This document shows positions 4,139 through 39,449 of a stretch of DNA of 64,000 bases, one piece after another. This stretch comes from a virus: IMG/VR virus record IMGVR_UViG_3300033141_006329, positions 1 to 64,000 of that record. One strand, written 5' to 3'. How positions within the stretch are numbered: the stretch's first letter is position 1; the number at the start of each line of letters is the position of its first letter. Below the pieces are notes generated by a model. That model searched no databases, was not told the origin of the DNA, and saw only the letters and a list, made by a program, of their open reading frames with translations. The position numbers and the translations under genes were made by a program.

Positions 4139-5539
4139 TCATAATTTTATAGTTTCTATCTTCCATCCATGCTTTTTATAAATTTCTATTCGTTGTTCGG
4201 ATTTCCTTATAAACCAATTCACTTTAGTATTACTCTCAATCGAGTTGGTTTTAGGCCCCTCTGTATCGATCAAATCCATAACTATGGGAATTTTCTTCCC
4301 CTCCAATTGTCTCTGTATTCTTCCGACACTTTGTAGGACATTTGTTGATGGCGTTGAATGTATTAAACAATCCAAATCTTTTCTATTGTTTCCATCCCGT
4401 GCAGCAAGATACGTTGCAAATATCACCTTTCTTTTATGAAAGGCCGTATCCAAATCATCTGTATTCGAAACAGACAATCTCTCTTCTGAAGTTGTCCCGG
4501 GTATAAATATACCTATGTCTTCTTTGGGTACTAAAGATTTCTTTGCTAATTCTAACAATGTCAATTTTCTCTCTCCTAATATGAGAGTGATCCTTCCTTT
4601 ATCGTAGCATTTTTTAACTAATTTGGATACAGTATCAATATATTTTTGAGATTTGGTTGCTTGCTTGAGATATCTACTTCGACTATATCTTCCTCCCCAA
4701 CATATATATTTTTTATATCTCCCATAAATACCAAATGAAAAGTATATCAAATATATTATTGGTTTTAATATTTCCCCCTCCCCTGGTTCTAGATAAGTAG
4801 TTTCACCTGTATGATATTTGATAATATCATCATTACCATCATTTCTGCTAGGTGTAGCACTTAAACCAAATATCCTTTTACATCTCAAACTCAAAGATGA
4901 TTTAGAAAACTCTTCGGGGCCTATGCCTATATGTACTTCATCGACAAACGCCATTCCAATTCCTGAATTATGCAAGGCTGTCATAAATTCATTATTCTCA
5001 TGCTTTATTGCATATGGTATTATATGTTCTGTGCTGAGTATTATTTTCTTCTGAAAGACCTTTTCATAATTCTTGGTAGATAATTTTCCTATATCGTCCT
5101 CAGTTAAATTTGTAAATTTTAATATCTCACTTTTCCATTGCTCTAATAGTTTCACCTTATGAGCAAATATTATTGTGCGTTTTTTGATTGCTGATATAGC
5201 TGCTATAGCTGCTACAGTTTTTCCTGATCCTGGTTCCAAACATAGTAAGCCGTTGTTATTCTCAGATAATAATTTTATGGCTTTTATCTGTCTGTCGGTA
5301 TTAGGAATTATATTACATTCTATTTCTATATCAACACCTTCATCGGTAAGATCCTTTATTTTATCTGTTACTGGATAAAATCTAGGGATTAGAATATAGT
5401 CTCCCATATCCTCATAAAATCTCATCTTATCTACTTCACCGTTATACCCATACACTATCCTATTTAGATCTCTTTCTATAACCTCAAAATTAGGATGTGA
5501 TTTGGGTAACTCTATTCCTCCACTCCTCTTTAACCTCAT
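4139..5539 (-). CDS. uvsW: SF2 DNA helicase, T4 UvsW-like
   Basis: 466-residue superfamily 2 helicase. Walker A is EPGSGKT (about residues 101-107), motif II is DEVH (about 200-203), motif III is GLSATPSR (about 226-233), and motif VI is QSVGRIQRQ near residue 410. This order and spacing match the UvsW/RadD-like helicases that unwind branched DNA and R-loops and help convert origin-dependent to recombination-dependent replication in T4. The N-terminal 95 residues probably form the small substrate-binding domain. Its place beside SSB and gp47 supports this. Confidence 0.85.
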   Translation of the reverse strand: MRLKRSGGIELPKSHPNFEVIERDLNRIVYGYNGEVDKMRFYEDMGDYILIPRFYPVTDKIKDLTDEGVDIEIECNIIPNTDRQIKAIKLLSENNNGLLCLEPGSGKTVAAIAAISAIKKRTIIFAHKVKLLEQWKSEILKFTNLTEDDIGKLSTKNYEKVFQKKIILSTEHIIPYAIKHENNEFMTALHNSGIGMAFVDEVHIGIGPEEFSKSSLSLRCKRIFGLSATPSRNDGNDDIIKYHTGETTYLEPGEGEILKPIIYLIYFSFGIYGRYKKYICWGGRYSRSRYLKQATKSQKYIDTVSKLVKKCYDKGRITLILGERKLTLLELAKKSLVPKEDIGIFIPGTTSEERLSVSNTDDLDTAFHKRKVIFATYLAARDGNNRKDLDCLIHSTPSTNVLQSVGRIQRQLEGKKIPIVMDLIDTEGPKTNSIESNTKVNWFIRKSEQRIEIYKKHGWKIETIKL

Positions 5540-5555
5540 TTATTTCTATTCCTCT

Positions 5556-6224
5556 CTACCTATTGCATAATTCCAACTCATATTCCTCTATCTCTTCTGG
5601 GCCAAATATACAACAACTACTTGGTGTCTCCCAAAAATCTATACGATGTAAACTACAATCGTCTGTAAAATCTAGGCACAATTTATCAAAAGCCCACTTT
5701 ATTATATTCTCAGAGGTAGGGTTATTTATTGTATCATTGAGTAAAGTGTGGTCCAATTTAGATATTATCTTATCCTTCACCAACTTTTTCAATACAACGA
5801 AATCAATAACCATTCCAGTCTCAGGATCTACTGGTCCCTTTATATATATTCTAATTTTTCCCCGGTGGCCATGGAGGGCACTGCAAGGACCAATATAGTC
5901 AGGGAGGAAATGTGCAAAATCAAATTCAAAATCCTTATATATTATCATTTCTGGCATTTTAATTTCTCCTTTATTTATCCTTCTTTGAAATTTATCTGTT
6001 AACAAATCACCGATCAAATTCCCCAGATCTTTTATCATATAATACACCCCATAGAAAAATGCGCCCCCAACAAGGCCCAGTTGCCATATCATATTAATAT
6101 CCATAACAAATGCAGATTCTTGGATTGTTCCATAATCTGATATAATTGCCACCATGAACCAAATATAAAATATCATAGCAGCTATTTTTCCTAAATTATT
6201 GAAAGTATTTTTTAAATCGTTCAT
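5556..6224 (-). CDS. queD: QueD-like 6-carboxytetrahydropterin synthase joined to an N-terminal membrane segment
   Basis: From residue 90 on this is a QueD/PTPS-fold enzyme: zinc-ligand FAHF, then GPCSALHGH (catalytic Cys plus two His ligands), LDHTLLND, NPTSENI and a late Glu (WETPSS). QueD converts dihydroneopterin triphosphate to 6-carboxytetrahydropterin on the 7-deazaguanine (queuosine/preQ) pathway. Upstream in the same frame, with no stop, are 89 residues with two membrane spans (about 14-29 and 46-63), starting at ATG 6224 behind an AGGAGG. A second perfect AGGAG stands 8 bases before ATG 5957 (MPEMIIYKDF), the natural QueD start. The locus may therefore make a membrane-tethered long form and a soluble short form. 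The neighbouring radical SAM gene could supply the next step. Confidence 0.85.
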   Translation of the reverse strand: MNDLKNTFNNLGKIAAMIFYIWFMVAIISDYGTIQESAFVMDINMIWQLGLVGGAFFYGVYYMIKDLGNLIGDLLTDKFQRRINKGEIKMPEMIIYKDFEFDFAHFLPDYIGPCSALHGHRGKIRIYIKGPVDPETGMVIDFVVLKKLVKDKIISKLDHTLLNDTINNPTSENIIKWAFDKLCLDFTDDCSLHRIDFWETPSSCCIFGPEEIEEYELELCNR

Positions 6225-6235
6225 ATTTTTCCTCC

Positions 6236-6865
6236 TCATAAAAATGTATTAGTTATTGAATTATCAGGCATATAGTAAATATTATAATCTCCTGCATCTA
6301 AGTAAAATAGTTGGGTATATTTATTTCTAATTTCCTCATACCGACCACTATCATCAAACCCCACTAACTGTTTTATTGTGAATTGACATTTATATTTATT
6401 TTGAAAATTCAAATATTCTTCAATCATTTCATCTGTTGTATTTGATGTAACCAGATGAGTTATTCTTACATTAGTTAGTTTTGTTAAATATTCCAAATAT
6501 TCAACATCGCCTGATAATATATCACTTGAAAACACGCATCTGTTAACGTGCTTTCTCCAAAAATTCTGATGGGTAAATTGTTCTCGCGTGTGTATATCTA
6601 CTTTCATTCCAAGGCTCTCTGTTATTTCAAAAAATCTTATCCACCACCCAACGTGTCTATCATATTTGTAAAGGCTATCACCTCCGCCAGACACAGATAC
6701 TTTTCCTTTGTCTCTGTGTTCAATTAAGAATTTTTCTAATTTCTTCCAATCCGTTTCTAATCTAATATTCTCCAGACGGTGACCCTTCCAAATACAATAC
6801 CAGCATTTGGCCCTACATCCGAAATTTGTAATTACTGAAATATTTGTGCTAATTGGCCGCAACAT
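6236..6865 (-). CDS. Small radical SAM enzyme (QueE-like by context)
   Basis: 209 residues with a CxxxCxxC cluster (GCRAKCWYCIWKGH, about residues 17-30) that would hold a 4Fe-4S cluster for S-adenosylmethionine cleavage, followed by a glycine-rich strand (VSGGGDSLYKY) in the place of the usual GGEP motif. The length is near that of QueE, the radical SAM enzyme that acts after QueD, and it sits directly upstream of queD. That assignment is inference: the GGEP motif is altered and I see no specific QueE residue. The start overlaps the RlmN-like gene by 34 bases and has GAGGAGG 7 bases upstream. Confidence 0.75.
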   Translation of the reverse strand: MLRPISTNISVITNFGCRAKCWYCIWKGHRLENIRLETDWKKLEKFLIEHRDKGKVSVSGGGDSLYKYDRHVGWWIRFFEITESLGMKVDIHTREQFTHQNFWRKHVNRCVFSSDILSGDVEYLEYLTKLTNVRITHLVTSNTTDEMIEEYLNFQNKYKCQFTIKQLVGFDDSGRYEEIRNKYTQLFYLDAGDYNIYYMPDNSITNTFL

Positions 6866-7812
6866 AATCCTGCCTCCTCACATTTTGCTATTGCATCAAT
6901 AACTGTAGGAACTCCTATTTTGTTAAAGTCATTCCCTAATTTTTCCAAAACTTCATAGTTATTATAATTAGCATATGTCTCAAGATGGTTTGTTTCAGAT
7001 CTAATTGTACTATTTAAAGGAATTAATTTCACCCTAAATCTATCACCAGTCAATCCCATTCTTTTCAACTTATTCACATCTATCTCAATGCCCTCCATAA
7101 CAATAAAATTTAGAGTAACTGTTCTATTCGTAATTTCGAATTTATTAAGATAGTTAATTATCTCTTCTATACCCAATACATCTGCCCCACCAAATAACTC
7201 TTTTCTTTTCGATTCATTTGTGGAATTAACTGATATCTGAAAATGTAAAAACCCATCATAATTATTTTCCTTAACTTCCATCACTCTATCAATAATCTCA
7301 AATCCATCCACACCTTCTATTGTTTTTCTTGGCAATATACTATTAAAACAAGGTAACCATCTATAATGTCTACTCATCGAGCGAGAAATTACGGGAAGCC
7401 TCTTAACAATCGTTAATACATTATCTATATTGTGCGCAGGTTCTCCCATTCTAGCAAACCCTATTTTAACTTTATCCGAACGTTGAACATAAGGTGAAAG
7501 ATCTAAAATTAAACGAATCTGGTTTTCTATTTCTATGTCTGTTAAATTTCCTTTAAATTCTAAACTCGGCACATCACAAAACTGACATTTGTGTGGGCAC
7601 CCTTTTTGAGTAGAAACAGTTAATAACCATTTTTCACTATAAGGTTTCAAATGTTTCCATATAATATGAGGATCTAAAGAATTTCTAACTTCGTAATTTT
7701 CTTTGCCGCCAACTGAAACATCTCTCATTTCAGTACATTCAATGAGATATCCATCACAGTCTACTAAAAATATTCTTCCACTTGGAAGATGACATACATC
7801 TTTAATTCTCAT
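6832..7812 (-). CDS. RlmN/Cfr-family radical SAM methyltransferase-like protein
   Basis: 326 residues. Family marks are seen in order: CPHKCQFC (4Fe-4S cluster, about residues 73-80), FARMGEPAHN (RlmN-type GMGEP loop), FQISVNSTNESKRKELFG (matches the SLHAPND region), LNFIVMEG, VKLIPLNS, and near the end CCGQLA. The CGQLA cysteine is the residue that carries the methyl group in RlmN and Cfr, so the methylating mechanism looks intact. Known members methylate A2503 of 23S rRNA (C2 by RlmN, C8 by Cfr) and, for RlmN, A37 of some tRNAs. A phage copy could alter host or phage RNA. It is the first of three consecutive genes with QueD and another radical SAM enzyme. Confidence 0.8.
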   Translation of the reverse strand: MRIKDVCHLPSGRIFLVDCDGYLIECTEMRDVSVGGKENYEVRNSLDPHIIWKHLKPYSEKWLLTVSTQKGCPHKCQFCDVPSLEFKGNLTDIEIENQIRLILDLSPYVQRSDKVKIGFARMGEPAHNIDNVLTIVKRLPVISRSMSRHYRWLPCFNSILPRKTIEGVDGFEIIDRVMEVKENNYDGFLHFQISVNSTNESKRKELFGGADVLGIEEIINYLNKFEITNRTVTLNFIVMEGIEIDVNKLKRMGLTGDRFRVKLIPLNSTIRSETNHLETYANYNNYEVLEKLGNDFNKIGVPTVIDAIAKCEEAGLCCGQLAQIFQ

Positions 7813-7814
7813 TT

Positions 7815-9170
7815 TTAATCCTCCTTTAAATTTGATTGTTCCAATAATTGTCCAATCTTCTGATATTTATCAATGCATAATTTTTCCGAATTATTCACTA
7901 CTTTCACAAACTTTTCTTTCTTATCTTTAAGCCCATCAATATCAAGAGACACTGAAATCAATTTTCTTATTTTATACTTACTCATAACTCTCTGAATACT
8001 AACTTTATCGCAATGTGATTTTTTTGATAGAACATTACATATTTCATCTGCCGAGGCTAAATTCTTCGTTGCGGATGATACGTGTGATCTAATCTTTTTT
8101 ATAGTTTTCAGGTCCTCTATCTCAACGTCCAGTACTTCTATAGATTTGTTTAAATAATTTTTAAAAGCATCCGAATAGCACGAATATGCCCTCAGTAACA
8201 TTTCATCAACAGATGATATTTTAACATTACCATCATCGACAACATACATATTGAAGGATATAGTATTCTTTAAAACTTCTGGTATTGCTTCACACATTCT
8301 TTCAAAAACCTTATCTTTATTTCTACTCTTCGCTACATCAAATGTCACAGTCGTACCAACATCGCCTGTGGAGTCATCATTATATCCTATATCGCCATTA
8401 GATAACAATCCCCAATCTTTATATTTATCTATCCTATTCAATAACGAAGTTTCAAATACCTGTCTTGGCGACCACCCTTTTATAATTACACATCTTTTAG
8501 CCTCATTTATAATATACTCCCCTTGTACTGAAATTTTGCCAGTTCCATCCATTAACAATTTCTCACAATCTTCATCCGATGACAGAACTTTACATCCTGT
8601 TACTTTTGGTCTTATTATTACTTTATCTCCAATACCCTTAAGATATAATAATCTAAGTATCAAATCAGATAATTCATAACAAGGGATATCTGTCTTAAAT
8701 CCAAATGCTATAGAGGACAATTCAGATAACGCCATAAGACAGAATGGTATCATGGTAGGTATTGCTACTGGTTCAGGATCAGACTCGTCTATTTCCCATT
8801 TGGCATAGTTAACATATTTAAAAGCTAATTCCTCTATAAACTTATTGGCTTTCATATAGGTATAACGAGGAGCAGCTGCACCCTCACTATCTATTCCTAT
8901 ATTAGATCCCCATTGTCCATCACCGTCTGCAAACTTATTTTGAACTGCCCAAACAGTTGTACCTATAGCTTCACTGTGAGGATGCCATCTGGCCATACAT
9001 TCGCCTAATATCTTCGCTGTCTTAACATATTTATTTTTCGCAATTGTATGAGCAGTAAGTAGTATTCTTCTTTGAACAGGAAGGAGTCCATCTATTATGG
9101 ATGGGAGCATCTTTCTGGTGTTTGAATATAAACCGTATTCCCTGTAATATTGCGGTATTAATTTTTCCAT
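7815..9170 (-). CDS. DNA topoisomerase II subunit A (GyrA/ParC, T4 gp52-like)
   Basis: 451 residues, equal to the breakage-reunion core of GyrA/ParC without the C-terminal wrapping domain, like T4 gp52. It starts LIPQYYREYGLYSNTRKMLP, continues PVQRRIL, then KILGECMARWHPHSE and GSNIG, then AAAPRYTYMK, where the Tyr (about residue 118) is the DNA-linking residue. The matching ATPase/TOPRIM subunit is at 12074-13885, and the two genes are separated by a homing endonuclease and small ORFs. The complex should relax DNA and support phage replication initiation. Confidence 0.92.
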   Translation of the reverse strand: MEKLIPQYYREYGLYSNTRKMLPSIIDGLLPVQRRILLTAHTIAKNKYVKTAKILGECMARWHPHSEAIGTTVWAVQNKFADGDGQWGSNIGIDSEGAAAPRYTYMKANKFIEELAFKYVNYAKWEIDESDPEPVAIPTMIPFCLMALSELSSIAFGFKTDIPCYELSDLILRLLYLKGIGDKVIIRPKVTGCKVLSSDEDCEKLLMDGTGKISVQGEYIINEAKRCVIIKGWSPRQVFETSLLNRIDKYKDWGLLSNGDIGYNDDSTGDVGTTVTFDVAKSRNKDKVFERMCEAIPEVLKNTISFNMYVVDDGNVKISSVDEMLLRAYSCYSDAFKNYLNKSIEVLDVEIEDLKTIKKIRSHVSSATKNLASADEICNVLSKKSHCDKVSIQRVMSKYKIRKLISVSLDIDGLKDKKEKFVKVVNNSEKLCIDKYQKIGQLLEQSNLKED

Positions 9171-30500: not shown

Positions 30501-31617
30501 CGAGTAGTTCGGAAAAATCCTTTTTTCTTTTCTCCATTATATGGGTAGGAACTTGATTATCCACTAATTCTGCTGGTCTGGATATTCTAACTATCTCATT
30601 TCTAGATGTGCTTTTAACTTTGGGTCTGGTTAGAATGGTTTCCGAATATTGTTTCACCATCTTATCTGCTACTTTTTTCTTCTCCTCCTTAGTTTTACCC
30701 TTCATTCTTTTTGCTACAGTTACTGCTTTATCGGGATCACCTGTTACATGATAAACTATTGCAGATGTTACAACTTCATCTGTATCCAATTCATCTATAT
30801 TGACATTTCTATATTCGGGTACTGAATCCATCATATTTTTTATTATTGACTTTACTGCTACTTGAGTTTTTTCGGACCCATATTTCAGTGTATCTGTATT
30901 ATTAACAACTAATTTGGATACTACATCAGTCTCGGCATTCTCAACATCTTTGGGATCTGAACTTTCTAACATAGATAACATCGATCTAATTCTGGCAACA
31001 TTTACTGGTTTATCTTTATCATACAACAAAACAAATCTACCCCCAGAATGATCATAAAAGAATAATAATAATTTATCAAATGGTATATCAGTCCCCTCCT
31101 TCAACATGTTATATATTGGATATATTTTTCTACGTCTTAAACTTTTCATTATAGGTGCATCGAGATTAACTGAATAAACCAATACCCTCTGAAATAGATC
31201 TTCAGGCACACTTCCTACTGCCTCTATAATCTTACTTATAATCATAGCACCTCTACCTGTATTAAACCTCGTCAGTTTAAATTTCTTGGTACTATAATTT
31301 ATCAAATTACTCAAATCCAAATAAAAATTCTTACCTATAACATTTTTATAATCGCCTATAAATCCTTTTACTGGGCGCAATTTATGTTCTATTAATAATT
31401 TCTTATATTGGGGAGTCAGAAGAGTTCGAGGTTTCTTTGTAATTGGAACAAACACATGTCTAACTTGTGTCACCTTTATTCTCATGGCTGTAAATGCTTC
31501 TAAGAATTTATGATTTTCTGTAAGCATAGTAAGACTTATATTTTTTCCATCTATTCCAGCAGGAGGAATAATTAGACTATCTACGGGTCTATATGGTTTG
31601 ATATTTTTAAATTGCAT
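27565..31617 (-). CDS. rpoB: RNA polymerase beta subunit, single polypeptide
   Basis: 1350 residues, close to the length of bacterial beta, in one piece. Signatures include RNIPCL-type region II (ITPVGIGGIPDKAAVPHKAL), GYNFEDGIVISE (about residue 930-941, bacterial beta motif), GDKMNNRHGNKGVVS (about 1075-1089; its Lys/Arg/His contact the nascent RNA and initiating nucleotide) and a C-terminal clamp part (GGQKFGESDLYGLLAWDC). Phages of the phiKZ group have beta split in two; this one is unsplit and closer to host beta. Its ATG overlaps the beta' stop as TAATG, so both are translationally coupled. Confidence 0.95.
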   Translation of the reverse strand: MQFKNIKPYRPVDSLIIPPAGIDGKNISLTMLTENHKFLEAFTAMRIKVTQVRHVFVPITKKPRTLLTPQYKKLLIEHKLRPVKGFIGDYKNVIGKNFYLDLSNLINYSTKKFKLTRFNTGRGAMIISKIIEAVGSVPEDLFQRVLVYSVNLDAPIMKSLRRRKIYPIYNMLKEGTDIPFDKLLLFFYDHSGGRFVLLYDKDKPVNVARIRSMLSMLESSDPKDVENAETDVVSKLVVNNTDTLKYGSEKTQVAVKSIIKNMMDSVPEYRNVNIDELDTDEVVTSAIVYHVTGDPDKAVTVAKRMKGKTKEEKKKVADKMVKQYSETILTRPKVKSTSRNEIVRISRPAELVDNQVPTHIMEKRKKDFSELLVKDLTNVFKPLETENLPLKVKSVKINPIKSPAGELKKTLKDRYTIQLSGPEGEVHTVELDIPHLTENGTFVINGQPKVLVNQLITHPIFFYKPYHGRLETSYAKLTIYSQQTKSPYLMAYMSGYKLPIMMFLGYNYGFKETMELFKIKYEIGIEKKPDSIKLLDDRFITFTTSSIVGEEVISSFKRSVVSFPVNHFEIEEKGFWERVLIKEIGTRNCIYRIDQSWKFILTPVAREVLLSKGDPTTLPTVIKYICEEVVKGTVDDRNSMDKQRVRTSEVFTNQIQKQVLSAYNEYLSKKLGGDETARLSLSPTKVFSEVTNSPNCQLLETSNPMEELSMMTRITPVGIGGIPDKAAVPHKALNIHYTYYGNIDPLETPDSPMVGIQQHLTVGATISNARGTFAMKDPSLVKPSEILSVGPAMVPFVESDDGCRVMMGTGQSRQVIPTEGAEPPAVQTGYESLLTNLLSENFIKKSPVNGVIISIKPDMIIVKDKDTGKEVPIDTRSVVLKSGSGKNGLSKFKPTVAIGQTVKRDQILAEGANISEGCIANGVNLLCAFMAWKGYNFEDGIVISESAAKKYISVHVEEEKVYLEPDDDVLSIVNVGDTIDKGGILITHSKAAYDVEAYKHLRTEGGIVSNIEVYANVKDIPEKLQSVYEEFRGHFTKINGKYPLGSFKEKNERFDGIMIKFTMEQHLKMEKGDKMNNRHGNKGVVSIIEKDENMPITPWGEKVDIILNPLGVVNRMNTGQTAEAHVGLIAKELASRIKDLPKARFISLLRTVLELLDGTDNKEYSKNVISKLKSMSDKGFNDLKNQVVKKGYMSIIVPPFKGPSRTNILEALAILGLKPSYKLKLPEFNMTTDPVTIGFILIQKLEQLSAKKLASRGVGPYVSKTLAPTAGKKRGGGQKFGESDLYGLLAWDCPIIIDEMFGSLSSDHASKNEMISEIIQQGKTEFRQGKINPEKELLDNMIIACHLESE

Positions 31618-34600
31618 TATTTTTGCCTCTCCTCCGTTAGAGGTATTCCCATTAACACTTTCTCTATGGGGCTTTCTGGTGCCCTATCACTTATCATACC
31701 ATATTGAATTGCTTTCCCGAAGTTTTCGAACGAAAATCCCAATGGCCATGATATTATACTAGGTAATGTTTTTATAGAGTACATTTCTGGATTAAATGGT
31801 TCTATTAATCTGGCGGGTTGTTGTGGATCTTTTTTTGCTCTCAATATATTAGATATAATCACCTCCAAATGAGATGAATCCCATCCCCCAGTAGCAGCCA
31901 ATGCTTTATAAAACTTATTATATATTGTCGATACATCTTGCCAGGGATATTTTCCACCAACCAGTTTATCTAATTCTCTTGCAAGTTCTGTAAAGTTTTC
32001 TTGTGTCGGTTCCGCATATAATATCTTATCACCTTTAGTATACATATATGATATATAGGAATCGTCTTCCTCTACTTCTTCTGGGGTATAGATTTTAATA
32101 GGCTTTTCTATAGCTACAGGTATCTCTAAATCACCAAACGTAAGTGTAAAGTGACCTACCTTCATATCCAGATATTCTTTTTCTTTAACAATTGGAGAAT
32201 GTTCATATATAGATTTATTTATCCTAAGCATAACAAATTCAGAATTGCTAAATAGATCATCATCTTCTTGTTTAAAAGATTCTCTGATTTTAGGTTCAAT
32301 ATAATCATCTACTTTAGTCATAAGCTCTTTTATTATATCTAGTTTATTCAATATTAAAACTCCACCAAGATGAAATGAATTGTGGTTCTGCACTGCCCCT
32401 AACATAAATTCATTGGTCTCTGTTTTTATATCATATACAGGATCAATCCAAGTATATATCTCTTTTGCTACCATTATTGGATCGAATCCCTTTATAGGAT
32501 TATCATTCTTTTTAAATGACATAGGTTTAAATTCAAGGTCTTCTGTTACCTTTTCGCAAGGTATCATTTCTTTCTGTGCTGGTATGCAAATCTTTACAAC
32601 AAATTCTACCAATCCTCTCGCATCTCTATCCTTACAATGGAAACGATTACTGAGAGCAGAAATTGTAGTATGATATCCTAATTTTAAAGATATCATTTTA
32701 AACTGTTGTGTTAGATTATAACTTCGTATATATGTGCTAAACCTAGTGCAACCATGTTCGGGCATCGCACCTATAGTATCCAGATACCCTGCCAAAAAAC
32801 TTTTCAACCAATCTTTATTATAACTTAAAAAATCAGGTGCCAATCTCACATCCCCTACACCAATACCCAAAACTATACCTTCAACAATATCTTTATTATA
32901 AGTAAACACTACGTATGTTGCAGATTCTACTGTTGATCTTTTTTCAATTTCCTTGAGTTTAAAATCTAAGCGTTCGCTTTCTCTTATTAATCTATCTATT
33001 TGGTCTTCATTTTCTATACGTATATCAATTGTGTCTGGAGATTTTTTCCCTACACTACCTCTAGCACAATATGCCCCTATAACATAACCTGCTGTCTTGG
33101 GTCTAATTCTATCTTTATTTATAATGAATGGTTCATTGTCTATCCATATGGCATCACCCTTGACTACATCCCCTGCAAGTTTTTCCACCACCTCATTATC
33201 TTCGGCTATTAAATATTTGGTATGCCATGATGTATATGTCTCTTTACCGACTAATCTAAATTCTGAATTCTTGTGCCATTTACATATTGGATTTTTCTTA
33301 ATCCATAAGGGATGATCAGCTTGACATACTAAAATGTGTCCTGTGTTAGTTCCAATGACAATCATTTTATCTTTGGGTGGATGTTTTTGCATTACAGATG
33401 TTTTAACCATTCCATCTTTTCCCTGGATACTACTCACAAATTCTTTTGTTTCTAGATCGCCTTCTATCACTGGTTCTACATCTATATTATCCCAAAGGTC
33501 ATCCATAGTAATCCATCTGTCATTATGGTATACTAAACCTTTAGATGACTTCATTATTTTCTCACTGAGCGAGGCTACTTGTTGTACTGCAACCATTCCC
33601 ACATTTTCTGTTTTTAACTGGGCTAACAATTTACCATAACATGTTCTACAAATTTTCTTACTTTTGCAAAATATAGGACTCCTTAGATTAATAACTCTGC
33701 CTATCATATCTTTAGTTAGTGGTTTCAACACACCTTTCTCGTCGTGAACAAATCTACCTGTCATCCTTTTGAATAGATCCTCTGTAAGTTTAAGTTGTAG
33801 TGTCTGTCTCGTACCACAATTGCCATTATTTACATCTGCTTGAACATTACCAACAACATATATCATCTTTCTATAGCCATATCCACCTGCCCCTGTATTT
33901 AAGGATCTATCTATAGTTCCTTTCCTTGATCCAGCGGCAGCTTCAAAATATTCTTTCGGTGTATATCCTTCATTTATAGACTTGGTTATGGGCGGCAAAA
34001 CATTTCCCATAGGATCTTGAACTAGTCCTTTACATACCATCATTTGTCTTATTTGATTCATTCCTTTAGATCCACCAGATGCCACAATATAATATAAATC
34101 TGAATTCGTATCTTTAAAATGTTTCAATAATGCTACTTCTATTTTATCAAGTATGTCTGATTGTTCTGAAACAATTTTAGTGGCACTTAATTCATCCTTC
34201 ATTTTTATTAAGTGTGGCGGGATTTTGAGTTGTTCCAAATTCAAAGTTTTTGGATATATTGTATTATATTTAAATCCTAATCTCATCAGTCTATCTGTTG
34301 TATTTGCAAAATCTACATCGCTCTTTTCTATGATCTCTTTTAATATATTTGTAATTGTTTTCTTACTTACATCAGCATCTACGAAAGGATACCACTGCGG
34401 CAAAACATTATTAAATATTATTCTGCCTGCTGTTGTTTTTATTTTCTTTCCCTTGTAGGTCATTTCAACTTTATGAGCTATATGTAATTTTTCTGCATCA
34501 GCTATAGAAGAGATGGATTTAACTTTAGGATCTTTTTGGGTGGCAGCAGTAAGTGTGAATATTCCTACGATTACATCTTTAGTTAATTCGAATATGGGAT

Positions 34601-36461
34601 CATTAATAGAATCCTTACTATGTACTGTTATCATTTTATCCTTAACTTCTTGTTGGGCTTCTTCGGACATTGGAGCGTAGAGAGCCATTGTATCATATAA
34701 AAATATACCCGTGTCTGTGGTAAATGTTTTATAATCCTCAACTGTAAAATCGTAACCAATTGTCTTATTCGGATCATGTTGTATATTCAGACAAGTTGCG
34801 GGTATAATTTCTATTTCCTTAGCATTTTGTTTGTGTAACAAATTTTTAAATGATTCTGATATATTGGATTCTTCTATAATGTGAGAAGGGATTGTGATCG
34901 ATTTTTGAGTATAATTTTTATTCCTGATACAATATCTAACATCATTCGTAACATCATCTGTATTAGTAAAATCTGGATGTTTTAATAACTTCTTGGGACA
35001 CCAAACAATCCTCCCTCTTTTTAAGGGAGGGGTAGATTTTACAATCTCAATATATTCTCTTAATTTTCTTTTTTTCTCAGGGTGGTTTAAAAGAGTTTGT
35101 AGACGTATGAGAAATTCAGAATATTCTTTTCGTATTGGAATGTATAAAACATAATAATGACGATATTCAGCTGGATCTATTATAGGTATTTTCTGTCCAT
35201 CTATCCCTAATGTATAGTTTTTAATATCTACTGAAATCGAACTCTCTATACCTAAACGATAATAAAGAACATATCGAACATCTTCAATGAGTTTTTTAGA
35301 TTTGGATGTAGCGGAAACTCCTCTGGGTCTAACCATACCATCTGTATCAATATATCCTGCAAATAATCCCATCACAAAATCGTCTGTGGAATTTAAAACC
35401 CAATCGGGAAGATGCTTATCAGAACAGGTATTTCCAAATTGATTTATATTAAATGGTACTTTTCTATTATATCCCCATCTTGTTGCCGGTTTATAACCAT
35501 TTCCATTTTTATCCTTTAAATTATAGGGATGATCATATTCTCGTAATTGATTTCTAAGTGGGGGTACTCCTATAAAATCTTCCAATAGCTCTTGAGCTAT
35601 ATTTGTCCACCCATTTCCAATGTCAGTATTTGAAGAATGTAATAATGAGATCCTTTGAGAAATATCACCATCACCTAATAATGCACCTATATAATAACCA
35701 AACTTTTCTTCGGTTATATTATTTTGGATTTCTTCATTTAATATAAATGATCTAGCATCTTTTGATGTCTTGGGTCTGCTCATAGATCTAATTAAATAAT
35801 ATCTTTTAGGGTCTTCAATAATTTCTTCGGGCGTGACTTTTCTGATTTCATCCTGATTATAATCAATAGCAACGACAGAATGATTATTAGATATCCATAA
35901 TTCCTTAACATCGCCTATAAGAGTATTTTTCTTCCTCCTATTGACAGAAAACATTTTGATATTTTCATGAATCGACCAATGGCTTATTTTTTTATATTCA
36001 ATTTTTCCATCATTGTTAATAGCTTGACAAAAAATTTCATCTAAAACGCTATAATTTTTAACAACTCTACCACCATTCTTACGTTTTTCATATTCTAATT
36101 CACATCTAAATTGTTTGCAAAAATCTGAAATATGAATTCGCATTGGAATATAATTTTCATTTTCACGTCTGTAAAGTCTTAAAAAACAATAACTTGAGTC
36201 ACCATCGAAATCAAATCCGTACTTTACCGATGCTGCGGGATGTACTTCCATTGTACTTCCTTCCACAATTTTAACATAAGCCCCTTGAGATCTAGCACTA
36301 TGAACATTAGGATCTCGTTTGTATATTACAACTTTCCCAGCATCCTCTATCTCTCGTTTAGCAACATCAAAAATTACATCATGTATAGCTTTGGGAACTT
36401 TATACCCCCGACTTATCATTTTTAAAATAAGTCTTATCTCTTCTGTTGTAGCTTGCTCCAC
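31617..36461 (-). CDS. rpoC: RNA polymerase beta' subunit, C-terminal part, with two inteins
   Basis: 1614 codons. After removal of two inteins about 722 residues remain. Extein pieces: residues 1-88 end in VKYGFDFDGD, the catalytic Mg-binding loop (NADFDGD in bacteria); next TMALYAPMSEEA follows after intein 1. Then NTGAGGYGYRKM, the zinc-site CKSKKICRTCYG and ENVGMVAVQQVASLSEKIMK, which corresponds to the bacterial [22 protein letters not shown] stretch, and after intein 2 SFHLGGVL (bacterial TFHTGG). The GEPGTQL part is not conserved. The N-terminal part of beta' is a separate gene at 37058-37981. A small membrane-type gene lies between them. Confidence 0.93.
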   Translation of the reverse strand: MEQATTEEIRLILKMISRGYKVPKAIHDVIFDVAKREIEDAGKVVIYKRDPNVHSARSQGAYVKIVEGSTMEVHPAASVKYGFDFDGDSSYCFLRLYRRENENYIPMRIHISDFCKQFRCELEYEKRKNGGRVVKNYSVLDEIFCQAINNDGKIEYKKISHWSIHENIKMFSVNRRKKNTLIGDVKELWISNNHSVVAIDYNQDEIRKVTPEEIIEDPKRYYLIRSMSRPKTSKDARSFILNEEIQNNITEEKFGYYIGALLGDGDISQRISLLHSSNTDIGNGWTNIAQELLEDFIGVPPLRNQLREYDHPYNLKDKNGNGYKPATRWGYNRKVPFNINQFGNTCSDKHLPDWVLNSTDDFVMGLFAGYIDTDGMVRPRGVSATSKSKKLIEDVRYVLYYRLGIESSISVDIKNYTLGIDGQKIPIIDPAEYRHYYVLYIPIRKEYSEFLIRLQTLLNHPEKKRKLREYIEIVKSTPPLKRGRIVWCPKKLLKHPDFTNTDDVTNDVRYCIRNKNYTQKSITIPSHIIEESNISESFKNLLHKQNAKEIEIIPATCLNIQHDPNKTIGYDFTVEDYKTFTTDTGIFLYDTMALYAPMSEEAQQEVKDKMITVHSKDSINDPIFELTKDVIVGIFTLTAATQKDPKVKSISSIADAEKLHIAHKVEMTYKGKKIKTTAGRIIFNNVLPQWYPFVDADVSKKTITNILKEIIEKSDVDFANTTDRLMRLGFKYNTIYPKTLNLEQLKIPPHLIKMKDELSATKIVSEQSDILDKIEVALLKHFKDTNSDLYYIVASGGSKGMNQIRQMMVCKGLVQDPMGNVLPPITKSINEGYTPKEYFEAAAGSRKGTIDRSLNTGAGGYGYRKMIYVVGNVQADVNNGNCGTRQTLQLKLTEDLFKRMTGRFVHDEKGVLKPLTKDMIGRVINLRSPIFCKSKKICRTCYGKLLAQLKTENVGMVAVQQVASLSEKIMKSSKGLVYHNDRWITMDDLWDNIDVEPVIEGDLETKEFVSSIQGKDGMVKTSVMQKHPPKDKMIVIGTNTGHILVCQADHPLWIKKNPICKWHKNSEFRLVGKETYTSWHTKYLIAEDNEVVEKLAGDVVKGDAIWIDNEPFIINKDRIRPKTAGYVIGAYCARGSVGKKSPDTIDIRIENEDQIDRLIRESERLDFKLKEIEKRSTVESATYVVFTYNKDIVEGIVLGIGVGDVRLAPDFLSYNKDWLKSFLAGYLDTIGAMPEHGCTRFSTYIRSYNLTQQFKMISLKLGYHTTISALSNRFHCKDRDARGLVEFVVKICIPAQKEMIPCEKVTEDLEFKPMSFKKNDNPIKGFDPIMVAKEIYTWIDPVYDIKTETNEFMLGAVQNHNSFHLGGVLILNKLDIIKELMTKVDDYIEPKIRESFKQEDDDLFSNSEFVMLRINKSIYEHSPIVKEKEYLDMKVGHFTLTFGDLEIPVAIEKPIKIYTPEEVEEDDSYISYMYTKGDKILYAEPTQENFTELARELDKLVGGKYPWQDVSTIYNKFYKALAATGGWDSSHLEVIISNILRAKKDPQQPARLIEPFNPEMYSIKTLPSIISWPLGFSFENFGKAIQYGMISDRAPESPIEKVLMGIPLTEERQK
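32379..33548 (-). other. Intein 2 in beta' with degenerate LAGLIDADG endonuclease
   Basis: 390 codons. It starts SSKGLVYHNDRWITMDDL (block A-like, Ser1) and ends VYDIKTETNEFMLGAVQNHN followed by Ser+1, with the normal His-Asn end. Removing it joins SLSEKIMK to SFHLGG, aligning with TMRTFHTGG of host beta'. The two dodecapeptides read GYVIGAYCARGS (about residue 1130 of the ORF) and FLAGYLDTIGAM (about 1226). Arg and Ile replace the acidic residue before the final Gly, so endonuclease activity is probably lost while splicing is kept. Confidence 0.88.
34692..36197 (-). other. Intein 1 in beta' with intact LAGLIDADG endonuclease
   Basis: 502 codons inserted directly after the catalytic FDFDGD loop. 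It begins SSYCFLRLYRRENENYI (Ser1) and ends GYDFTVEDYKTFTTDTGIFL, then YD, followed by Thr+1. Removal restores FDFDGD-TMALYAPMS, in register with DFDGDQMAVHVPLS of host beta'. The dodecapeptides IGALLGDGDIS (about ORF residue 261) and LFAGYIDTDGMV (about 370) keep both catalytic acids. The last residue is Asp rather than Asn and no His precedes it, an uncommon variant of the splice junction. Confidence 0.88.
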
Positions 36462-38411: not shown

Positions 38412-39449
38412 TCATCCGTGAGTATTAATATCATCATCTTCTTCAATTAGGGACATAATTTGACATGTGTGTGTACAACCGCCTTTACATAATGACTCTT
38501 TATCTGCTTCTATAGCCTCTTCTATATTTGCTTTTTCTACCCCATCTGATCCATGCTTATCCAATAAATCTATAGCTTTAAACTCTGGTGTATATCTGCC
38601 CCTTATCCGCCCACAACACCGCATGGTCCCGTCACATTCAATCGTGACATTATGCAGATTATCTTTACCTAATTTGCAATCTAAATTAGCAGGTAGTATG
38701 TTATATATCTTCATCAGCAAAGTATCCTTCATATGTATTTTATAATCACTGTCTCTCAATCTTTCAAATATAGCCTTAACTTCAGAATTCTTTGGAACTA
38801 ATAATTCGGGGTTGGTTACAGATGAGAAATCATAATAATTATTCTTTGCAATATCCAATACTGTTATATCTGAATATATTTCATTGGCCGACAATTTTTC
38901 TACTGTTTCTTCTAAATATTTTATATTATCCTTATCCACAGTAATTTCTGCTACAGGGTCATCTACTAAACCATCATATATCAATCTAACCAACATATTA
39001 AATCCGGCATTAGATTTATACATCTCATCATCATCTATACTATCATGCAACCAAAAACCTGGATCTACAGATGCAGTGAATCCTTTTATTCTACCCACCT
39101 TATCAAACATATCTCCTATGAGTGGTCTTATTGTGTCACTACAATTTGATATTATTGTATAATTTGCATCTATGTTTTTAAGATGTTTTAAAACAGTTGG
39201 TAATTCTTTATACAGGAAAGGTTCTCCCCCAAATAATATAAAGAATATATCTTTATTATGCTTGACCATTCTATCTATCATGTCTATCCAAAACTCTGGA
39301 GATTGCTCATTCTGGAAATAATATTTACCATTTGGATATTCTTTTGGTTGAAGAATATAATCTATATCTCCGCTAAATCTACAATAATCACAATGCAGGT
39401 TACACCGTCTAGTTAATACCAATGTTGCTATTTTAATTTTGTTTTCCAT
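38412..39449 (-). CDS. Radical SAM/SPASM-type enzyme
   Basis: 345 residues. The 4Fe-4S motif is CNLHCDYC (about 16-23), followed by LFGGEPFLYKEL (GGEP). The C-terminal part has clustered cysteines (LDCKLG, ECDGTMRCCGRIRG, LCKGGCTHTC), typical of SPASM or twitch domains that hold auxiliary clusters. Relatives modify peptides or proteins, so a post-translational role is a fair guess; no substrate peptide is recognised nearby. It stands upstream of the RNA polymerase operon and overlaps the next gene upstream by 17 bases. Confidence 0.85.
   Translation of the reverse strand: MENKIKIATLVLTRRCNLHCDYCRFSGDIDYILQPKEYPNGKYYFQNEQSPEFWIDMIDRMVKHNKDIFFILFGGEPFLYKELPTVLKHLKNIDANYTIISNCSDTIRPLIGDMFDKVGRIKGFTASVDPGFWLHDSIDDDEMYKSNAGFNMLVRLIYDGLVDDPVAEITVDKDNIKYLEETVEKLSANEIYSDITVLDIAKNNYYDFSSVTNPELLVPKNSEVKAIFERLRDSDYKIHMKDTLLMKIYNILPANLDCKLGKDNLHNVTIECDGTMRCCGRIRGRYTPEFKAIDLLDKHGSDGVEKANIEEAIEADKESLCKGGCTHTCQIMSLIEEDDDINTHG

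Follow-up and report, generated by a model that had tools for sequence, protein, structure and literature searches.

At one locus of a large phage, two independent systems probably meet, namely a 7-deazaguanine pathway that is dispersed over the phage record and a mobile two-gene module of an RlmN-like and a small radical SAM protein that would carry out a radical methylation. QueD, encoded at the locus, belongs to the former. The gene pair recurs among phages that are not related and suggests a radical modification that has yet to be described. The most defensible description of the module is that of a variant with a changed catalytic cysteine set, lying beside a gene of a separate pathway by chance or local convenience.

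Gene layout of the locus

The window (the whole stretch of DNA analysed) covers the initial 64 kb of a virus record of 223,370 bases. Among the products encoded on this record are a class II ribonucleotide reductase, a family B DNA polymerase and proteins resembling RNA polymerase beta and beta-prime. Three ORFs on the minus strand of the window overlap (Table 1), as an earlier model reading of the sequence, here called the sequence-only reading, had described. The RlmN-like and small radical SAM ORFs share 34 nt, and the small radical SAM and QueD ORFs share 4 nt (ATGA). The Shine-Dalgarno sequence and ATG of the small partner fall within the part of the RlmN-like gene that codes for the carrier segment KCEEAGLCCGQ. 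Because the cluster is part of an extended series of genes on the minus strand, where a topoisomerase II subunit and a helicase border it, such overlap is a weak sign of a functional unit; overlapping genes are frequent along the whole compact minus strand. A promoter scan gave a result no better than shuffled sequences. No tRNA genes were detected in the whole record, hence no phage tRNA substrate was found.

Table 1. Location of the features discussed (window numbering, or record numbering where indicated)
Feature	Position	Strand	Characteristics
RlmN-like radical SAM protein (326 aa)	6832..7812	-	CxxxCxxC at C72/C76/C79, RMGEP, C-terminal CCGQL (C318)
Small partner radical SAM protein (209 aa)	6236..6865	-	CRAKCWYC, SGGGDSL, C-terminal DYNIYYMPDNS; phrog_17662
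QueD ORF, full in-frame length	5556..6239	-	ORF reading
QueD (6-carboxytetrahydropterin synthase) domain	5556..5957	-	Own Shine-Dalgarno/ATG; C(x3)HGH, LDH, Glu of WETP
In-frame N-terminal extension of the QueD ORF	5958..6239	-	Hydrophobic membrane-like segments; alternative ATG near 6224 after GAGGAGG
Topoisomerase II subunit	7815-9170		
Helicase	4139-5539		
QueE	117845-118639 (record)		ESIQGEG, CxxxCxxC, SGGEP; phrog_2076 1.6e-37
QueC-like protein	109505-110290 (record)		PF06508 above Pfam cut-off; zinc-type SC...CxxCxxC
DpdA2-like ORF (461 aa), probable transglycosylase	118649-120034 (record)		Motifs and QueE neighbourhood
RNA polymerase beta-prime-like ORF (1614 aa)	31617-36461		LAGLIDADG and intein-splicing matches
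UDG-superfamily domain fused ahead of family B DNA polymerase	115049-117577 (record)		Ends soon after YGDTDS
PfkB + cytidylyltransferase fusion near a heptosyltransferase-family protein	110780-112261 and 107373-108635 (record)		HldE-like, ADP-heptose synthesis
Further radical SAM protein	38412-39449		SPASM-like; weak PapB and viperin matches
Further radical SAM protein	91744-92883 (record)		

Several other features of the record are included in Table 1. The second half of the family B DNA polymerase was not found in the record. Of the two additional radical SAM proteins, the SPASM-like one at 38412-39449 weakly resembles a protein encoded close to FolE in contig 3300018080_000009 (hereafter G005).

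Genes of a probable 7-deazaguanine pathway dispersed over the record

The QueD protein matches Pfam PTPS (5e-32) and scores just above the cut-off of the curated QueD model TIGR03367 (89.6 versus 89.25 bits). Reading of the residues shows that the zinc-binding His and the catalytic C...HGH, DH and E are kept, which upholds its earlier naming as QueD. The QueD domain (132 aa) is provided with an AAAGGAG and an ATG at about 5957, and the in-frame stretch upstream is stop-free, hydrophobic and membrane-protein-like. The true QueD gene may comprise only the domain (about 5556-5957), and the extension could be either fused to it or a small protein in its own right. The separate Shine-Dalgarno/ATG of both parts would fit a fusion, a dual start or a lost stop codon.

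QueD had been tied to the 7-deazaguanine pathway by the sequence-only reading, and further pathway genes indeed occur in the same record, namely QueE, a QueC-like and a DpdA-like gene. The lack of every other pathway gene, which that reading had named as refuting, does not apply. QueD, QueE and QueC, which the phage pathway requires, are all present. FolE (PF01227) gave no match in the record; it could be supplied by the host, and the record may be incomplete. The record's QueE matches the QueE of 277 phage records, and no relatives of it were found in the scan of viral contigs. The QueC-like protein is divergent, with a SAGIDS P-loop, and is similar to the SGGPDS-bearing QueC of G005.

The 461-aa ORF directly follows QueE, and in phage Moby the DpdA2 gene likewise adjoins QueE. 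All motifs of the DpdA2 pattern (DSxGxQ, FDxxP, HxLG and YDSTT) occur in order, and the corresponding DSAGFQ, FDPVP, HVLG and TYDSTT are collinear with invariant positions of seven DpdA2 proteins. Profile comparison with DpdA (hhalign) yielded an E-value of 0.012 with a probability of 3.6%. No match was obtained to the TGT family in Pfam, to the PDB with phmmer or to phages with tblastn, and scans of viral contigs with the whole protein and with the motif region returned no relatives. Judged by its motifs and context, this ORF probably encodes a DpdA2-like transglycosylase.

Judging from published phages, the combination of QueD, QueE, QueC and DpdA predicts DNA modified with a preQ0-type base, for which the FolE product comes from the host (PMC6884629). 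The QueD of the window is part of such a 7-deazaguanine route, scattered over one phage record, from which a modified base would be expected. From dihydroneopterin triphosphate delivered by the host's FolE, preQ0 or a related base would be produced by QueD, QueE and QueC, and DpdA would exchange this base into the phage DNA, against restriction.

The small radical SAM partner

The small partner matches phrog_17662 (1.4e-15) and, weakly, Radical_SAM. Its candidacy as the QueE of the pathway was ruled out: no QueE model matches at an E-value of 0.001, SGGGD takes the place of GGEP, and the true QueE is encoded elsewhere in the record (Table 1). The earlier suggestion that this protein, without a clear GGEP, has a reaction different from that of QueE is in line with these results. 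The phrog_17662 family is common in Clostridia prophages (L043-L050, L059-L066), in which SGGGD and DYNxY are invariant; no RlmN-like gene was found in the 6-kb flanks examined there.

The structural model of the small partner (pLDDT 86.8) shows a bare radical SAM core. Its nearest structures, at a TM-score of about 0.6, are SuiB, EpeE, MoaA and viperin-like enzymes; these matches are generic and do not tell the substrate. The resemblance to the peptide maturases SuiB and EpeE and to viperin-like enzymes, together with EpmB as weak best NCBIfam match, could be taken to mean that the substrate of the pair is a peptide or protein, be it RiPP-like or from the host, and not a nucleic acid. We give this a slim chance, as the matches reflect the generic core, no ORF resembling a precursor is found repeatedly next to the module, and the RlmN-like half matches RNA methylases.

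A mobile module independent of QueD

The RlmN-like and small radical SAM genes lie next to each other in the window and on five further phage contigs, and both gene orders occur. The RlmN-like gene comes first in the window record, 3300037297_000078, 3300005077_000712 and G005, and the small radical SAM gene comes first in 3300042991_000725 and 3300029305_007680. On a seventh contig (3300035701_000194), another kind of radical-SAM-type gene comes after the RlmN-like gene. All six module phages, that of the window included, have a phrog_17662 match, and the 14 control genomes have none. The RlmN-like proteins of the module contigs are 53-65% identical to that of the window and the small radical SAM proteins 30-70%. 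Since the module proteins are this similar and the module phages have a total of only 3-10 ORFs in common with the window record, the pair moves horizontally.

This distribution bears on the earlier proposal that the three genes form one unit coupling 7-deazaguanine synthesis with RNA methylation. The overlaps themselves stand, other deazaguanine genes are present in the record, and QueE and QueC also occur in two other phages with an RlmN-like gene (G005 and Vibrio phage D479). A functional unit of the three genes is not supported: the true QueE, adjoining the DpdA-like gene, lies 111 kb from QueD, and QueD lies beside the RlmN-like gene in none of the six other contigs. In G005, QueC, QueD, QueE and FolE are present at a distance of at least 18 kb to the module, and the four remaining module contigs, which are partial genomes, have no homologue of QueD, QueE, QueC or DpdA. 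With gene overlap as frequent as it is on this strand, we regard such coupling as very unlikely and retain the reading of two independent systems.

The RlmN-like protein and its probable chemistry

The RlmN-like protein matches phrog_24834 (5e-29) and the RlmN model TIGR00048 (1.6e-15), the latter with 57 bits against a curated cut-off of 290. For its AF2 model, built from seven sequences (pLDDT 82.8), the first ten PDB matches in Foldseek are RlmN-type (E down to 1e-11, TM-score 0.66). C72, C76 and C79 as well as C318 align with Klebsiella RlmN, so that the cluster ligands and the methyl-carrying cysteine, recognized before in the CGQLA motif, are retained. The second catalytic cysteine (C118 in RlmN, C105 in Cfr) is replaced by Thr65, and Thr occupies this position in all seven module-type members, window included. 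The N-terminal helical domain of RlmN is absent, both in the alignment and in the model. Additionally, C155, C311 and C317 are invariant in seven close relatives (window included).

In RlmN and Cfr (class A), the carrier cysteine is methylated, a radical is made on the methyl group and a covalent adduct with adenine forms (PMC9692996). C118 of RlmN and C105 of Cfr are indispensable for adduct resolution, and the RlmN variant C118A traps the covalent adduct (PMC9692996). With the carrier cysteine kept and C118 absent, the carrier half of this mechanism is plausible, and resolution must differ.

A plain phage RlmN that forms m2A or m8A at 23S A2503 or tRNA A37, with the small radical SAM protein doing a separate job, would explain why RlmN and Cfr are the best structural and HMM relatives and why the carrier cysteine is kept. 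We consider it unlikely, given the missing helical domain, the Thr in place of C118, a score far under the RlmN equivalog cut-off and a second radical SAM gene that stays adjacent in both gene orders. Methylation of 23S A2503, put forward by the sequence-only reading, is doubtful with both the N-terminal helical domain and the essential C118 missing.

Most likely, the module is a class-A-type radical methylase that works with a second radical SAM enzyme on one substrate. The RlmN-like enzyme would methylate its own C318 from one SAM, and a second SAM would yield a 5'-dA radical that converts S-methyl-Cys318 into a CH2 radical. This radical would add to an sp2 carbon of the substrate, most likely an adenine of RNA, and the adduct would be resolved by a residue other than C118, with the invariant C155 or C317 as candidates. 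The small partner may act on the same substrate in a further step driven by a 5'-dA radical, or assist in adduct resolution or processing. Should this scheme hold, phages carry a radical methylation system that moves horizontally and whose set of catalytic cysteines has changed.

Split relatives with a separate carrier peptide

A family scan was seeded with the RlmN-like proteins of four named phages in which the C-terminal Cys segment is encoded on a separate ORF. In viral contigs, 218 stretches encode RlmN-like relatives, and 80 loci were read. A separate carrier peptide ORF starts within 400 nt of the core stop in 48 of the 73 loci with a readable core, usually 8-20 nt past it, in any of the three frames and in several cases with a Shine-Dalgarno sequence. 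In most remaining readable loci the carrier lies 0.5-1.9 kb off; one carrier is located upstream and one locus is fused. Split enzymes, with a carrier ORF of about 40 aa (AACGQL) just downstream of the radical SAM core, were seen at L014:5851-6813, L015:4833-5758, L011:5830-6910 and L012:4827-6170 and among L079-L158. The carrier peptide has a consensus of about M..IKKQLEE.GYDYAVAIATQSEIENGAACGQLSIITE, and in Vibrio phage D479 its ORF is tandemly duplicated (two CGQM). Because the carrier-peptide profile matches RlmN weakly (E 0.038), homology of the carrier rests on the alignment of CGQL and on the core ending where the C-terminal segment of RlmN starts.

Among 56 distinct split cores, cysteine is conserved only at the three cluster ligands. 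The C118 position is Gly in 56/56, a count biased by the search motif MIGVS, which contains that Gly. A second radical SAM ORF was present in the flanks of 20 of 66 distinct loci, compared with a background of about 3 non-module radical SAM ORFs in 499 kb, drawn from four contigs only. This second gene is MoaA-, viperin- or SPASM-like and is often located between the core and the carrier peptide (L084, L095, L108, L113, L120, L123, L127, L135 and L144, among others). Being paired with another radical SAM enzyme may be a general trait of RlmN-like proteins in phages. Most phage relatives in our sample are split, with the carrier on a gene for a peptide of about 40 aa, and we believe that this arrangement is undescribed; no report of a phage split RlmN was found in the open-licence papers searched.

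In the absence of Cys118, the carrier might also stay covalently bound, such that the protein or, in split relatives, the 40-aa peptide is joined to a nucleic-acid base via a Cys-CH2 bridge. Exactly such an adduct is trapped by RlmN C118A (PMC9692996), the module has Thr at this position and the split cores, where only the cluster-ligand cysteines are conserved, have Gly, and the carrier of split relatives is a small, cheap, separate peptide, in tandem in phage D479. The carrier of the window, however, is fused and would make a single-turnover enzyme, the invariant C155 or C317 could resolve the adduct, and the Gly count carries the bias of the MIGVS pattern. We therefore rate this conjugate as rather improbable. 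A broader proposal is that RlmN-derived phage enzymes that lack the resolving cysteine, paired with a second radical SAM enzyme and often with a split carrier, install a novel modification, either a base that is carbon-methylated or processed further, or a stable conjugate in which Cys-CH2 is joined to the base (peptidylated nucleic acid); its probability is low as well.

The split family would provide a natural methyl-carrier peptide in trans, by which methyl transfer, adduct formation and adduct resolution of RlmN/Cfr would become separable across proteins. Culturable phages with the split form, namely Moorella phage MTATph1, Kehishuvirus tikkala and Pectobacterium phage Wc4, make the modified host or phage molecule and the defence countered testable.

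Comparison with known systems

Like phages with 7-deazaguanine DNA modification of the phage 9g, CAjan and nt-1 type, the phage studied here combines QueD, QueE, a QueC-like and a probable DpdA2-like protein. It differs from them in that these genes are scattered over 115 kb and no FolE was found, in the strong divergence of its QueC-like and putative DpdA proteins, and in the radical SAM module beside QueD. The small partner belongs to the same family as the phrog_17662 proteins of Clostridia prophages, with invariant CxxxCxYC, SGGGD and DYNxY, but is about 25-30% identical to them. With RlmN and Cfr, the RlmN-like protein shares the radical SAM core, MGEP, the C-terminal carrier cysteine in CGQL and the fold (Foldseek E 1e-11). 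Unlike these enzymes, it has no N-terminal helical domain, carries Thr for C118, stops right after CGQL, adjoins a second radical SAM gene and scores far under the curated cut-off. It is a member of phrog_24834, the family of phage RlmN-like proteins, many of which have the carrier cysteine split off onto an ORF of about 40 aa, whereas the protein of the window is fused.
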